Origin: Candidatus Zhuqueibacterota bacterium
GTDB lineage: Bacteria; SM23-31
Length of the DNA: 5,061 bases
Direction of reading: 5' to 3'
Assembly: GCA_022562855.1 (NCBI GenBank)
Contig: JADFON010000187.1
Location: 1 to 5,061, forward strand
Positions 1-4,854 of this stretch are shown here, one piece after another. A program made the position numbers and the translations under genes. Within the stretch, counting starts at the first letter, position 1, and every line of letters begins with the position of its first letter. Under the pieces are notes generated by a model. That model was not told where the DNA came from. It did no database searches and was given only the letters and a program-made list of their open reading frames with translations.

Positions 1-315
1 CTGAATTTTACGATGGGGTATAAATTATATAGCGCTGATAATACGAATGGGATCTATCTGGAGGTTGGATACAATATAAATGATCATATCTCATTATTTA
101 TAGGTGGTATTACCAATGCAAGTGTTTTAAATTTTTCCGATGACAAGGGTATAACAAATATTGGAATTAATGCATCAAAAGATCTTATGATCACTGATCG
201 TTTTACTTTTCCTTTAGAAATATCATTAATTGTCAATCCTAACTATAGAAATATTTCAAAAGTTCCCGGAGTAGGTCAAAATCCAGTAAATTTTGTAGTG
301 TCTGTTGTTTTTTAG
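1..315 (+). CDS. Outer-membrane beta-barrel protein, C-terminal part (possibly TorF/Gcw_chp-like porin)
   Basis: The reading frame is open from base 1, so this is the 3' end of a longer gene; the ATG at 13 is probably internal. The 104 visible residues show alternating hydrophobic/polar strands with polar turns (GIYLEVGYNINDHISLFIGG and onward) and end in VVSVVF. A terminal Phe after a short strand is the usual BAM-recognised signal of outer-membrane barrels. The pattern of a Tyr-rich strand, then TNIGINASKDLMITD, then PLEISLIVNPNY, resembles the C-terminal half of the TorF/Gcw_chp putative porin family, but that assignment is from memory and moderate at best. The protein would sit in the outer membrane, possibly as a pore; substrate unknown. 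Its last 11 bases overlap the proposed start of the next gene. Its GC (about 30% by hand count) is far below that of the next gene (about 54%). Confidence 0.75.
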   Translation: MNFTMGYKLYSADNTNGIYLEVGYNINDHISLFIGGITNASVLNFSDDKGITNIGINASKDLMITDRFTFPLEISLIVNPNYRNISKVPGVGQNPVNFVVSVVF

Positions 316-1243
316 TATAAATCTCAAACCAATTTTAATTTTAATTTTCCTTTTGGTATTGACTTCCAGTCCTGTTTATTCACAGGATGCAGCCGGTGGA
401 GAGACGAAGGGTTCCACACAGATAGTCTTACTCGGCACGGGAACTCCGAATGCCGAACCCGACAGGTCGGGGACTTCGATAGCGATTGTCGTTGACGGGA
501 CGCCGTATATTTTTGACGCCGGACCGGGGCTGATCAGGCGGGCAAACGCTGCAGTTGAGGCGGGAGTCGGAGGTCTGAAGGTAAGCGGTATAAAAAGAGC
601 TTTTATCACGCATTTGCACTCCGACCATACGGTGGGGCTGCCGGATCTTATTTTCACTCCCTGGGTTTTGGATAGAGAGGAACCGTTAGATGTATATGGT
701 CCGCCGGGTATAATGAACATGATAGACCATATTCTTGCAGCCTACGAAGAAGACATCGCGATGAGGATATATGGAGACCAACCGTCGAATACAGAAGGCT
801 ACAAGGTGAACGTTTTCGAAATACAGCCCGGAGTAATTTACAAGGATAAAAAAATAACCGTAAAGGCGTTTCTGGTGAATCACGGGTCGTGGGATTACGC
901 ATACGGTTACCGGATCGAAACCCCCGACCGTGTAATTGTTATTTCAGGCGATACCGCCCCAACCGAGGAACTCATCAAAAATGCCGAGGGGTGTGACGTA
1001 CTGATTCACGAGGTCTATTCAGAAGCCGGATTTCAAAATCGCACTCCTGAGTGGCAGACCTATCATTCGGGTTCTCACACTTCAACGATCCAGCTTGCCG
1101 ATATTGCAAAAAGAATAAATCCGGAACTGGTTATCCTGTACCATCAACTTTCAATGGGGGCAACTCCCGAAGAAATGCTCGCCGAGATCGCCGATATTTA
1201 CAAGGGTAAAGTTGTGTATGGTAATGATTTGGAGATATATTAA
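305..1243 (+). CDS. Secreted MBL-fold metallo-hydrolase, ribonuclease Z/arylsulfatase-like
   Basis: A 312-residue metallo-beta-lactamase-fold enzyme. Residues 1-26 form a Sec signal peptide (hydrophobic core about 9-20, likely cleavage after PVYS and before Gln27), so it should act outside the cytoplasm. All RNase Z-type metal ligands are visible: HLHSDH (His103, His105, Asp107, His108), His193, Asp216 in SGDT, the HEVY segment at 235-238, HTS at 258-260 and His280 in ILYHQ. The GTGTP strand (44-48) and DAGPG (71-75) are family signatures. No long tRNA-binding exosite arm is apparent. With export, this argues against tRNA 3' processing and for an arylsulfatase or phosphodiesterase-like role; the substrate is unknown. 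The start is TTG at 305; the frame closes at a stop at 296-298, and later TTGs would destroy the signal peptide. No good Shine-Dalgarno site precedes it, so coupling to the upstream gene is likely. Confidence 0.92.
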   Translation: MFFSINLKPILILIFLLVLTSSPVYSQDAAGGETKGSTQIVLLGTGTPNAEPDRSGTSIAIVVDGTPYIFDAGPGLIRRANAAVEAGVGGLKVSGIKRAFITHLHSDHTVGLPDLIFTPWVLDREEPLDVYGPPGIMNMIDHILAAYEEDIAMRIYGDQPSNTEGYKVNVFEIQPGVIYKDKKITVKAFLVNHGSWDYAYGYRIETPDRVIVISGDTAPTEELIKNAEGCDVLIHEVYSEAGFQNRTPEWQTYHSGSHTSTIQLADIAKRINPELVILYHQLSMGATPEEMLAEIADIYKGKVVYGNDLEIY

Positions 1244-1309: not shown

Positions 1310-1591
1310 TCATCCCAATGCGATGACCCGGCTGACTGCTTTTTTCATTTCCGAGATTTCTTTTTGTATTTCCTTGAGTTCTTGTTTATCGATTCTGACT
1401 TTGCCGTCTTCATCTGGTTTGAGGGCGCGGGAAAACACCGAAATTACATCCACGGTTTCCTGAATCAAACCGAATACTATATTTATTTTTTTTCCGAGTA
1501 CTTTTTTTGCGCCGAACACCGACAATACGAACGTCAGCCCGCCAACTGCAAGCGAACCGTTGTGCGACAGTAGTTGAATTATCCAATCCAT
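1310..1591 (-). CDS. Small phage-like membrane protein, N-terminal TM plus charged C-terminal helix
   Basis: A 93-residue protein I cannot assign to a named family. After a short amphipathic start, residues about 12-28 form one hydrophobic membrane segment rich in Gly/Val/Leu, followed by Lys29-Lys30 and Lys34-Lys35 and a second, weaker hydrophobic helix (36-54). Residues 59-63 (PDEDG) followed by KVRID form an acidic DxDG-type turn that does not fit a full EF-hand loop. Residues 67-90 are a highly charged Lys/Glu helix likely to be a coiled coil. This layout is common among holin-like or tail/lysis accessory proteins of phages, and the neighbours fit that, but the function is inferred. A strong ribosome site, AAGGGAG (1597-1603), lies 5 bases before the ATG and fixes the start. 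It is the last gene of the minus-strand block and converges on the metallo-hydrolase gene 66 bases away. Confidence 0.72.
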   Translation of the reverse strand: MDWIIQLLSHNGSLAVGGLTFVLSVFGAKKVLGKKINIVFGLIQETVDVISVFSRALKPDEDGKVRIDKQELKEIQKEISEMKKAVSRVIALG

Positions 1592-1867: not shown

Positions 1868-2107
1868 TCATTTAAACACATATCGTATAAATCCCTGGAT
1901 TATTGTCAAGAACAGACCTGTGGTCAGTATCCACAGCCATTTTCCTGCGGCAATCCGGAATCCGGTGTTCTTGCCAACCCGTGAGTAAAGCCCGTTATCC
2001 GGATCGAAAAGGTTCATTTTTATTTCGTGAATATCGTGCTGCAGGTTTGTTTGCCCTTCGAGGATTTTTTCGGTTATCTCTTTAATTTCGGTAATCGTTT
2101 TAGTCAT
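1868..2107 (-). CDS. XhlA-like phage protein: N-terminal coiled coil, C-terminal membrane anchor
   Basis: A 79-residue protein with two clear parts. Residues 1-33 form an amphipathic helix with Ile at 5, 8, 11 and 15, predicted to be a coiled coil. Residues 57-76 form one membrane-spanning helix beginning KWLWILTTG and ending before a short basic tail. The connecting segment DPDNGLYSRV (35-44) resembles a motif I associate with small phage-encoded coiled-coil/TM proteins. The overall build matches XhlA-type hemolysin/lysis accessory proteins, which sit at the cytoplasmic membrane and work with holins; the specific role is inferred. The ATG at 2107 has only a weak ribosome site. It lies 165 bases after the 801-residue gene and 276 bases before the 93-residue gene, all on the same strand, with repeat sequences filling both gaps, so one transcript is possible but not shown. 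Confidence 0.75.
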   Translation of the reverse strand: MTKTITEIKEITEKILEGQTNLQHDIHEIKMNLFDPDNGLYSRVGKNTGFRIAAGKWLWILTTGLFLTIIQGFIRYVFK

Positions 2108-2156
2108 AGTTGTCTGGAATTATTGTTCATTGGTTAGATTTTTTCCTAATTATTTT

Positions 2157-2196
2157 GACGCAGATTTTCACAGATTTAACATGATTGACACTGATA
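2157..2196. repeat. Degenerate 10-base periodic repeat
   Basis: Four consecutive 10-base units, GACGCAGATT, TTCACAGATT, TAACATGATT and GACACTGATA, share a CA/AC core and a GAT(T/A) end in the same register. It lies in the 165-base gap between the 801- and 79-residue genes. This kind of CAGATT-rich repeat occurs as dispersed intergenic sequence in some bacteria; no function can be read from it. Confidence 0.55.
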
Positions 2197-2272
2197 AAGA
2201 CAAAAAACCCACCTCCTGTACCCCTCTCACATGGTAATAGAAGGAGAAGTTTTGTTGTCATTCTTATTTTAA

Positions 2273-4678
2273 TTAGATAATTTTTTTCACTATATACCAA
2301 TTCGGTTTTTTGTTACCGATAAATAATCGAAACTGGTAAACGCCATGGAGTGAATCACCGGTAAATGCCCCAACCCGGTTGTTTTCTCCCCACTCGAGTA
2401 TGGTTACACTATCGATATCGTTTAAATTTTTTACCGAATCGAATTCGATATCATATATCGAGCTCTCACTGTCAACATCGGATTGCCAGAATCCCGGACA
2501 CAAATATCCCCGGTTCAGTTTTTCCACATCGTCCGCTTTCATATAGAATGTCTCGGCGCAGTTATTCTCGTCTTTTATTCGAATACGTATCTTCGCGAAC
2601 GGTTGACGGTCATTGGATTCCGAGTCACTGAGAAAACTTTTCTGACCTTTGCTGCTTTCAATACCTGTCTCACCGTTTTTAATCTGTCGTTGAGAGGCAA
2701 TTCTTGCAGACTTTTTATTGAGAAAACTATCCATTAATTTGAAGGTCTCGATAGAATCGGGTTTTTTATCGATCCTGACTCCTATTACCCGGGGGTTTTT
2801 CCAACTGATTTTGTTGTCAAGATGAGAAACAGAATCCACTTCGACAAGAATCGTATCTCCATCCCTGCATTTTATAGGCGTTAAATGGGTGGCTCCAACA
2901 TATTTCAACCCGGTACGGTCTTTTATGCTTGCTCCATGTATCCATCCGTTTGACTTGGCGGTACTGCTTACTACAGATACATCAAGGACAAGTTTTTTTG
3001 ATAAAAACACCTTCCGGGAGGAATCACCGAACCGGCTCGCCAACGGCGTCAGCAAAACGCCCTCATGCGTACTTACCGATTCAATTTTATCATAGAGTTT
3101 ATCGTCTCCCAGCGAGACTCCGAAAGGTATGCATTGGATGACCCTCGAGTCTTTGCATATCTCTGAAAAATGCTCTAACCGCTCAATCAGAAACTCCGAA
3201 TTCTTTGTGGTTTCATCACTGAAATCCATCACTTTGACGCTGAAGCGCGGTTTTTCAGGAAAGACATTTTTACCTGAACTATCTATGGACAATTCGACCC
3301 TGCTTTTTCCTTTGAAAGCGATTAGCCCTGCAAGAATTTCACATGAATATAAATTCATGATCTTTAATTCCCTTGCAACATCTGCGAAGAAATCCAGGAA
3401 TAATTTTTCCATTTTGGCATATCCCTGCGGCAGTATAAATGAGATTGAGTCTATGTTATTTATTTCTCCGGCTGTATTTTCATTTTTTTTCTTTTGTAAT
3501 CCAATCGAGATTTTGACCGGTACGGCGTTATATTGCGGCATTACAACGAGATGTTCATCTTTACACTCCATTTGGGAGGTATCGAATATCTTTTCCGGCG
3601 CCCTGTTTAGCTCTTCACCGGCATCGTAATAAACGGAAAAATTTATGTCGCAGTGATTATCTTTTTTGATCTCATCCCGATTATGTATTTTTCTGTCTAT
3701 GCCTGTATCTTCGTGTCCGTCTTTATTTTGAATAGGGGGCAGAAATTCAATTTCAAGCACAGATTTATGGTTTACTTTTATACATGGAGCGGAATCCAAC
3801 ACAGATTCGCACACGTTTATCCTGTCTGCAAGGTAACCGGGAAGGATTTCTCCGAGATGCTCAAAAGCATTTTTATCCGGAAGAATATCTATCAAACCGT
3901 CTGTCCAGCCATGTTTTGCCATATCGCCGGTAATATAAAGGCTGCCGGACTGAATGTTTTGAAAATACGGCAAAATATCCTCCTTGTGAATCCTCCTTTC
4001 GGGATTTAATTTGAACAGCGACGCCTGGCTTTCATAATCGGCTTTCACGTTATTGTTTAACTCAAATCCAGTACCCGGATGCCCCCCGGCAAAAACAATA
4101 GAACCTTCAAGTACGTCTCCGATATCCTCATACCAGAAAAAGCATAACTTACCGTCATACCTTTTACCGGGCACATGGTCACACAACCTGATATCTTTTT
4201 TGCATATTCCGCATACGGGTTTTTCAAAGTACCAGCTAATGGAAGCCTGATGGTAAATACCGCCGTCAATATTCAGCCTGAGGTCTTCTGCCTGGGAATG
4301 GGATTTCATCCAGTAGATTTTCGGAACAATAAAATTCATTTTCTCTATTTTTCCGGTTTCGATATTAAGCGCCGGGTGGCTCTCGATACTTCCTCCAAAA
4401 AAACGGGCAATTCCTGCGGTTTCTTTCCGGTGACCGATCAAGCATGAAGCGCCCTGTGTCTTATTCAGAAGATCAGGCAGGTCTTCCGTATGAAATCTTC
4501 CAAAGTGGCAATTAATGCCATCACCGGCAAGACGGCACTTCCGGACATAGATATCCTTGATTTTGACAGGAACCGGAGGGGGGTTCGAGAGGTTGCTAAT
4601 GACAGCGATATCGTCGTCCGAAACAGAAGTTGTACCGGTATCAATTGTACCGGCAAGGCTATCGAAAATACGGATCAT
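2273..4678 (-). CDS. Phage prohead-protease-like / nucleotidyltransferase-like / degenerate DNA ligase-like fusion protein
   Basis: An intact 801-residue multidomain protein. Residues about 45-205 resemble a prohead (S78-type) protease: GASCLIGHRKETAGIARFF holds a likely catalytic His83, HQASISWYF a likely Ser146, and LEGSIVFAGGHPG fits the family's closing strand. A zinc knuckle, Cys156, Cys159, Cys166 and His168, is inserted after the Ser strand. Residues about 245-312 (YITGDMAKHGWTDGLIDIL) recall a Pol-beta-type nucleotidyltransferase lacking a complete DxD. Residues about 345-570 follow the order of ATP-dependent DNA ligase motifs, but KxDGxR reads QYNAVP (382-387), DGE reads AGL (450-452) and EGxxxK reads EGVLLT (539-544). 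Residues about 575-645 look like the ligase OB fold (DGDTILVEVD, then KNPRVIGVRIDKK). The C-terminal 110 residues are unassigned. GGGGAG lies 9 bases before the ATG, which overlaps the upstream stop. Protease fold fairly likely; ligase fold likely but inactive; nucleotidyltransferase tentative. Confidence 0.85.
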   Translation of the reverse strand: MIRIFDSLAGTIDTGTTSVSDDDIAVISNLSNPPPVPVKIKDIYVRKCRLAGDGINCHFGRFHTEDLPDLLNKTQGASCLIGHRKETAGIARFFGGSIESHPALNIETGKIEKMNFIVPKIYWMKSHSQAEDLRLNIDGGIYHQASISWYFEKPVCGICKKDIRLCDHVPGKRYDGKLCFFWYEDIGDVLEGSIVFAGGHPGTGFELNNNVKADYESQASLFKLNPERRIHKEDILPYFQNIQSGSLYITGDMAKHGWTDGLIDILPDKNAFEHLGEILPGYLADRINVCESVLDSAPCIKVNHKSVLEIEFLPPIQNKDGHEDTGIDRKIHNRDEIKKDNHCDINFSVYYDAGEELNRAPEKIFDTSQMECKDEHLVVMPQYNAVPVKISIGLQKKKNENTAGEINNIDSISFILPQGYAKMEKLFLDFFADVARELKIMNLYSCEILAGLIAFKGKSRVELSIDSSGKNVFPEKPRFSVKVMDFSDETTKNSEFLIERLEHFSEICKDSRVIQCIPFGVSLGDDKLYDKIESVSTHEGVLLTPLASRFGDSSRKVFLSKKLVLDVSVVSSTAKSNGWIHGASIKDRTGLKYVGATHLTPIKCRDGDTILVEVDSVSHLDNKISWKNPRVIGVRIDKKPDSIETFKLMDSFLNKKSARIASQRQIKNGETGIESSKGQKSFLSDSESNDRQPFAKIRIRIKDENNCAETFYMKADDVEKLNRGYLCPGFWQSDVDSESSIYDIEFDSVKNLNDIDSVTILEWGENNRVGAFTGDSLHGVYQFRLFIGNKKPNWYIVKKII

Positions 4679-4854
4679 GCTATTACTCTCCCCATTAGTC
4701 TTTCGTTGTTGTTAGTCACTATTTTCTTTTTACAAATAATGCATACAGGGAAATAATCGTCGCTTTGGATTGCAGATTCCCGGTTAATCGAACAGCGGCA
4801 AAATTTCGAGCCGCTTGTTTCAATTTTTTTGTCTTTTTTCGAATTTTCGTCCAA
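4675..4854 (-). CDS. Small four-cysteine zinc-ribbon-like protein, TTG start
   Basis: A 59-residue protein with a Lys/Glu-rich N-terminus (1-17) and two cysteine pairs, Cys19-x-Cys21 and Cys38-x2-Cys41, in a spacing compatible with a small zinc ribbon. The start is TTG (4852-4854): AGGAG (4862-4866) sits exactly 7 bases upstream and no ATG or GTG lies between it and the upstream stop at 4891-4893. The TGA stop overlaps the ATG of the 801-residue gene as ATGA, a classic translationally coupled junction, so this is very likely the first gene of the operon. PVCIICKKKI (36-45) matches PVCGICKKDI (154-163) of the downstream fusion protein at 8 of 10 positions, suggesting the same kind of metal-binding turn. 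A weak sigma-70-like pair, TTGAAG (4916-4921) and TATTAC (4894-4899) with a 16-base spacer, lies upstream. The function is unknown; a DNA- or protein-binding role is a guess. Confidence 0.7.
   Translation of the reverse strand: MDENSKKDKKIETSGSKFCRCSINRESAIQSDDYFPVCIICKKKIVTNNNERLMGRVIA

Follow-up and report, generated by a model that had tools for sequence, protein, structure and literature searches.

Known gene transfer agents (GTAs) or viriforms include the Rhodogtaviriformidae, Bartogtaviriformidae, and Brachygtaviriformidae (PMC9662315). Here we analyzed a 5,061-base stretch of DNA, referred to below as the window, which is the entire contig C194 (JADFON010000187.1) of a draft genome of a Candidatus Zhuqueibacterota bacterium (GCA_022562855.1; 2.5 Mb, 491 contigs, ~80% complete) and carries a gene whose product naturally unites capsid-maturation protease and DNA-ligase folds in one chain. 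The N-terminal part of the 801-residue product resembles a phage head (prohead) maturation protease, and residues ~228-801 form a degraded nucleotidyltransferase (NTase)-like/ATP-dependent DNA ligase/OB-fold/tail module; protease ancestry of the one half and ligase ancestry of the other are both very probable. Homologues of the gene lie in a cassette of a second, sister phylum (probably Ca. Electryoneota) that, like the GTAs and viriforms, has single-copy HK97-type capsid, TerL, portal, protease, and lysis genes tracking host phylogeny. Unlike those systems, the cassette has no recognised tail genes, belongs to different phyla (FCB group), and is known here from genes alone rather than from demonstrated particles or transfer.

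The described proteins closest to the fusion each resemble a part of it. The phrog_16951 member of Flavonifractor phage Cormatin (WAK79859.1), annotated as 'major head and protease protein' on the basis of HHpred, is collinear with residues 14-205 and has the same His, Ser, C-C-C-H knuckle, and closing E-x-S strand, and its gene is located after the portal gene, between it and the major head protein gene. However, the Cormatin protein (230 residues) stops after the protease, whereas the window protein has 590 residues more. The remaining part is similar to an 866-residue protein of ANMV-1, a virus of methanotrophic archaea (AJP62006.1, KP703175.1), in which an NTase-like domain, ligase core, OB fold, and similar C-terminus (tail) occur in the same order, but which is a stand-alone protein without protease, has intact catalytic lysine and NTase D-x-D, and is longer by an extra segment of several hundred residues that in a relative is phosphoesterase-like. 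The same module is also found beside head-protease-like and HK97-type capsid genes in the 30-kb viral contig IMGVR_UViG_3300044799_000064 (L068), although here the lysine is intact, the genes are separate with the ligase upstream of the protease, and tail-type genes are present on the contig as well. Archaeal ATP-dependent DNA ligases (Archaeoglobus 3gde, Thermococcus 3rr5/6wbo) share the OB fold and motif-VI region with the window protein and adenylation-domain similarity with one of its homologues (L019), but in the window protein the N-terminal DNA-binding domain of ligases is missing, the catalytic residues have been lost, and a protease forms part of the same chain. No description of a protease-ligase fusion, or of such a cassette in these bacteria, was found in the open-access literature.

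An intact fusion gene in three genomes

A previous interpretation of this DNA, made without database searches (hereafter the sequence-only reading), had proposed a single 801-residue protein, and this stood exactly: the open reading frame (ORF) has 801 codons from ATG to stop, with no internal stops. A homologue search with the window protein in 98 related genomes revealed full-length fusions in two further genomes, i.e., bacterium SM23_31 (L010/L017; 826 residues, 49% identity to the window protein) and CSMAG_2693 (L012/L019; 731 residues, 33% identity). The presence of the long fused frame in three independent genomes rules out a frameshift or assembly artefact. A 422-residue homologue in the same family (L011/L018) lacks the ligase core, and further relatives end after the N-terminal domain. 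In the six-genome phylum to which the window belongs, the N-terminal domain was detected in five genomes, three of which carry the fused form. Conservation of the N-terminal domain and absence of the middle part from some relatives imply that the protein is modular. No fused relatives were detected in viral-contig scans with the window protein, the module alignment, or ANMV-1 ligase queries.

The start of the fusion gene overlaps the stop of the upstream ORF via ATGA, an arrangement also observed for L017. Homologues of the fusion gene come after TerL and portal genes in L017, L018, and L019, and the portal gene is located just upstream in these three loci and in those of the sister phylum. 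In the genome of the window itself, another contig (C138) contains connector-like, small terminase-like, TerL, and portal genes and ends after the portal gene.

The N-terminal domain resembles head-maturation proteases

Residues 14-205 match phrog_16951 (E=8.4e-20). In addition, tblastn matched the protein of the Flavonifractor phage that bears the 'major head and protease protein' annotation (E=5e-6), and profile alignment of the window family with the Cormatin protein gave E=4e-14. Because phrog_16951 itself is unannotated (function unknown in PHROGs), the chain leading to the protease family is indirect; its phage member cross-matches phrog_4523 (E=3.7e-5), which is named 'major head and protease protein'. 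In an alignment of 36 sequences, including the outliers Brevibacillus phage Jenst and one distant genome, H83, S146, E191, and the closing-strand residue V195 are invariant. The prohead-protease-like character of the N-terminal ~205 residues, with His/Ser and closing-strand features, had been proposed earlier and is borne out by the phrog_16951 match and these residues. An AlphaFold model of residues 1-212 is weak (predicted local distance difference test, pLDDT, 49), and its match in the BFVD viral library is a phage 'prohead serine protease' (E=9.4e-5). Given the retained candidate catalytic residues, the N-terminal half is probably an active head-maturation protease.

The C-terminal part is a degraded NTase-ligase module

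Searches of Pfam, NCBIfam, and PDB sequences with the window protein alone yielded no match for the ligase half. However, the homologue L012 matches DNA_ligase_A_M (PF01068) at E=8.3e-16 over residues 341-515, L012/L019 matches archaeal DNA ligases in PDB by sequence (~3e-6), and E-P-L-Y-E-G of L019 aligns exactly on E-x-K-F-D-G, motif I of the Archaeoglobus ligase. When a profile of the window protein and L017 (without L012) was aligned with three viral-type NTase-ligases, a collinear alignment of 392 columns was obtained (score 71, E=6.5e-8), compared with scores of at most 24 for 30 column-shuffled controls and 17 for the reversed control; addition of L019 to the profile raised the score to 131 (E=1.3e-15).

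Structural comparison points in the same direction. AlphaFold modelled residues 231-316 and 561-650 of the window protein with confidence (pLDDT ~80-90), and the best matches of modelled residues 560-655 are DNA ligases, such as 6wbo (Z=10.9, root-mean-square deviation 3.0, 96 aligned residues). The modelled OB domain matches 3rr5 (Z=10.7, deviation 2.5, 95 aligned), and residues 383-654 match 3gde with Z=11.2 but a high deviation of 8.1. With the full-length model as query, Foldseek returned only weak OB-type matches from PDB. The order of ligase motifs and the OB fold placed by the sequence-only reading within residues 345-645 are therefore supported, like the proposed protease half, by profile and structure tests at roughly the stated boundaries, except that motif I is only a degenerate remnant. 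Residues 240-315, which had been set apart as a separate segment for structure prediction, do form a distinct domain, now amended to NTase-like and found in the same order in viral ligase proteins. Taken with the C-terminal tail, which was likewise added to the earlier interpretation, this predicted domain reproduces the viral NTase-ligase layout. A stretch of the type P-R-V-I...D-K-K-x-P-D was considered as an ANMV-1-specific link but dropped, as this motif-VI region is common to Thermococcus ligases.

The catalytic residues of the module have been replaced. Motif I reads P-Q-Y-N-A (Q382) in the window protein, P-H-Y-D-G in L017, and P-L-Y-E-G in L019, so none of the three fused proteins retains the catalytic lysine. 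The window protein (EGVLLT) and L017 (EGVDIT) have another residue in place of the motif IV lysine, and motif III of the window protein is weakened, its acidic residues being absent. The first Asp of the NTase-like D-x-D (G-D-I-D in ANMV-1) is likewise replaced in each fused protein (G-L-I-D, T-S-I-D, and D-R-I-D). The module changes faster than the protease (35-43% vs 79% identity), but all frames of the fused genes are open, and between the window gene and L017 the proportion of nonsynonymous differences (pN) is about half of a saturated synonymous proportion (pS) in the ligase and OB regions. Such loss of active sites together with open frames and constrained amino-acid change is the pattern of a retained pseudo-enzyme, and the ligase module is very likely catalytically dead, judging from its sequence. 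The earlier suggestion of a domesticated pseudo-enzyme is thus favoured for the ligase half, but not for the protease half, which looks active in having the expected catalytic residues invariant.

Stand-alone viral NTase-ligases and the origin of the module

The ANMV-1 NTase-ligase gene lies directly downstream of the portal gene. In L068, a 1,343-residue NTase-ligase is encoded directly before the protease-like and capsid genes; scans with A3, A5, and L068 queries found this contig as the sole one. A third version (L062/L028, contig G100:C143; 1,255-1,314 residues) is present in a Hatepunaea genome bin, and this contig could be that of a virus binned with its host. Since stand-alone relatives adjoin portal or protease/capsid genes, the fusion plausibly joined neighbours within a head module, for which a stand-alone NTase-ligase next to the portal or protease would plausibly be the obvious donor.

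The fusion also directs attention to head-module NTase-ligases in archaeal and other viruses. Large NTase-ligases with intact lysine occur in viral head/structural clusters (L068 and L109 of IMGVR_UViG_3300044799_000064 and L061 of ANMV-1), and their role in the virion appears to be unstudied in the open-access literature; the ligase is not mentioned in the main text of the ANMV-1 description (PMC4372165). The ANMV-1 gene at 1913-3193 of KP703175.1 bears the deposited name 'MutT-like phage hydrolase', but Pfam identifies its product as a portal protein (Phage_portal_3, E=3e-22). The L062/L028 NTase-ligase has a LigD-phosphoesterase-like segment, and its gene adjoins a LAGLIDADG-like ORF and genes of repetitive secreted proteins.

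Probable vertical inheritance of the cassette in the sister phylum

The protease was detected in 35 of 39 genomes of the second phylum, in exactly one copy each, and the capsid protein (MCP) and TerL were each found in 38 of the 45 genomes of both phyla together, nearly always as single copies; since draft genomes miss genes, these absences are soft. The evolutionary test compared a single cassette gene, that of the N-terminal-only proteases of the sister phylum, with a single marker. Protease and RecA distances in the 24 genomes having both are strongly correlated (Mantel r=0.90, a value reached in 0 of 2000 permutations), and each of the five host families with at least two members is monophyletic in both the protease and RecA trees.

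Several long host contigs of this phylum show the cassette between ordinary host genes, its genes being arranged as cement protein, capsid protein, connector-like, TerL, portal, protease, secreted proteins, small membrane pair, and amidase. None of the cassette genes on these contigs was recognised as a tail gene. In four cases (G107:C16, G123:C8, G124:C14, and G125:C2), capsid, TerL, and protease genes are spread over 21-54 kb with host genes between them, a layout resembling that of dispersed GTAs. It is likely that the cassette has been domesticated, which was directly tested only in the sister phylum, and it is a candidate for an unrecognised GTA. If true, such a phylum-wide, vertically inherited capsid-packaging system would extend GTA-like systems to a bacterial branch for which no such system was found in the open-access literature and would account for cassettes of this kind appearing as short 'viral' contigs in metagenomes.

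Possible role of the fusion protein and alternative explanations

The explanation that we favour, with moderate confidence, is that the fusion represents the head-maturation serine protease of a domesticated GTA-like HK97-type cassette, with a degraded NTase-ligase-OB module at its C-terminus. The N-terminal domain would act on capsid precursor proteins, cleaving them as the head matures, and the C-terminal module, which would have ceased to join DNA, would enter the prohead together with the protease. Considering that the protease looks intact and the ligase dead, the ligase fold has probably acquired a new use within a viral head, where it might serve as a platform that binds DNA or its ends close to the portal, or an internal assembly core. 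Of the roles considered, the likeliest for the dead ligase module, with its OB-containing clamp fold, would be to bind DNA or a partner close to the portal while packaging takes place, and it might in this way couple head assembly to DNA ends. More speculatively, and in our view less likely than not, FCB-group bacteria (probably Ca. Electryoneota and the small sister phylum of the window) may possess a vertically inherited GTA that has gone unrecognised and is tail-less or tail-diverged, and in the lineage of the window its protease may have acquired a dead viral NTase-ligase that acts as a receptor for DNA ends and so connects maturation of the capsid with the packaging of host DNA.

Several observations weigh against this interpretation. 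Curated Pfam/NCBIfam protease models (S78/XkdF) gave no match among 11 members, perhaps because profile sensitivity was too low, and the low-confidence protease model found no match in PDB, which does not exclude the fold. Residues 316-560 of the window protein are poorly modelled, so it is homologues and profiles that support the assignment of the adenylation domain. The test of vertical inheritance was confined to the sister phylum, the six-genome phylum of the window being too small for it. A 31-kb contig (IMGVR_UViG_3300028837_001967; L075/L107/L108) with the same head module, an integrase (tyrosine-recombinase)-like gene, helicase/nuclease-type genes, and no recognised tail genes shows that mobile relatives of the cassette exist; it is possibly a tail-less or tail-diverged viral relative. 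Finally, a role of the dead module in DNA binding or packaging is tentative and, in our view, falls somewhat short of being probable.

With regard to mechanism, the main rival is that the module acts as an assembly scaffold or a delta-domain-like core of the prohead, its ligase fold being kept for shape or protein contacts without any contact with DNA. In many HK97-type phages the protease is present inside the prohead with the scaffold, and the much faster change of the module compared with the protease and the complete loss of the ligase core in the 422-residue L018 would be expected of a non-enzymatic spacer. However, the OB domain and motif-VI-like region are the best-preserved parts of the ligase, which fits DNA binding at least equally well, and a scaffold signature was not found; we consider this alternative possible but doubtful. 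A far less plausible one is that the module is an active ligase with an unusual active site, sealing nicks or joining the ends of packaged DNA: the overall fold and several motif positions are kept and stand-alone viral relatives look active with K-x-D-G intact, but the loss of the adenylated lysine from every fused protein, combined in the window protein with the loss of the motif IV Lys and motif III acidic residues, makes this very improbable. Even less credible is a coincidental order of ligase-like motifs in an otherwise unrelated domain at residues 345-645. Such a coincidence would explain why the window protein alone matches neither Pfam nor PDB ligase sequences, but it was rejected because of the PF01068 match of L012, the profile alignment far exceeding shuffled and reversed controls, and the top structural matches of the model, which are DNA ligases.

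The gene might also belong to an ordinary or decaying prophage with no domestication involved, as the 31-kb relative with integrase-like and replication-type genes and the presence of only a cassette fragment on the window contig may suggest. Against this, the cassette of the sister phylum is near-universal, mostly single-copy, and RecA-like in its phylogeny; its genes are dispersed over 20-54 kb in some genomes, and the frames are open throughout. In addition, no integrase or replication genes were seen by eye beside the cassette on several long host contigs (L020, L022, L023, and L026), for which no systematic search was made. A prophage origin without domestication therefore appears unlikely, and the domesticated GTA-like cassette remains the reading that we prefer.

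Features of the window and further observations on the cassette

Coordinates of the fusion gene, its domains and candidate catalytic residues, and the other genes of the window are given in Table 1.

Table 1. Annotated features of the 5,061-base window, with residue numbers referring to the 801-residue fusion protein.
Feature	Positions	Strand	Basis
Whole gene, head-protease/NTase-like/pseudo-DNA-ligase/OB/tail fusion, 801 residues	2273..4678	minus	ORF and fused homologues
Head (prohead) maturation protease domain, residues 14-205	4064..4639	minus	phrog_16951, 36-member alignment, BFVD match
Candidate catalytic His83 (IGHRKE)	4430..4432	minus	Invariant 36/36
Candidate catalytic Ser146 (HQASIS)	4241..4243	minus	Invariant 36/36
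C156-x2-C159-x6-C166-x-H168, metal-knuckle-like insert in protease	4175..4213	minus	Four residues invariant 36/36
Glu191 (LEGSIV) in closing strand, possible third catalytic or structural residue	4106..4108	minus	Invariant 36/36
Degenerate NTase-like domain, residues ~228-310, ITGDMAKHGWTDGLIDIL, first Asp of D-x-D is Leu	3749..3997	minus	Model pLDDT ~80; aligned with ANMV-1 LVGGLANNGRTKGDIDVF
Degenerate ATP-dependent DNA ligase adenylation domain, residues ~375-558, motif I P381-Q382-Y383-N384-A385 for K-x-D-G	3005..3556	minus	Homologues and profiles
Ligase-type OB fold, residues 559-650, motif-VI-like W-K-N-P-R at end	2729..3004	minus	pLDDT ~80-90; structure matches
C-terminal tail, residues ~755-801, may resemble viral NTase-ligase C-terminus	2276..2416	minus	Alignment only; weak
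Short upstream ORF, C-x-x-C, ATGA overlap at end	4675..4854	minus	Counterpart is a 95-residue gene between portal and fusion gene in L017
79-residue membrane-anchored small protein, putative holin-like pair member 1	1868..2107	minus	Syntenic in L017 and L018; function suggested by position
93-residue small membrane/coiled-coil protein, putative pair member 2	1310..1591	minus	Syntenic in L017 and L018; function suggested by position
Metallo-beta-lactamase-fold gene, presumably host	305..1243	plus	PF12706, E=3e-18

One of the host contigs, L022 (CAMBDS010000001.1), is titled Caldithrix abyssi but matches G099, which groups with the Hatepunaea phylum, and its organism name is probably wrong. Between the protease and lysis genes of the cassette, secreted-looking proteins are encoded (L020 11267-12061, L026 11389-12243, and similar), which are possible surface or tail-replacement proteins; one secreted-looking protein of the cassette matches a virion structural PHROG (E=6e-8).

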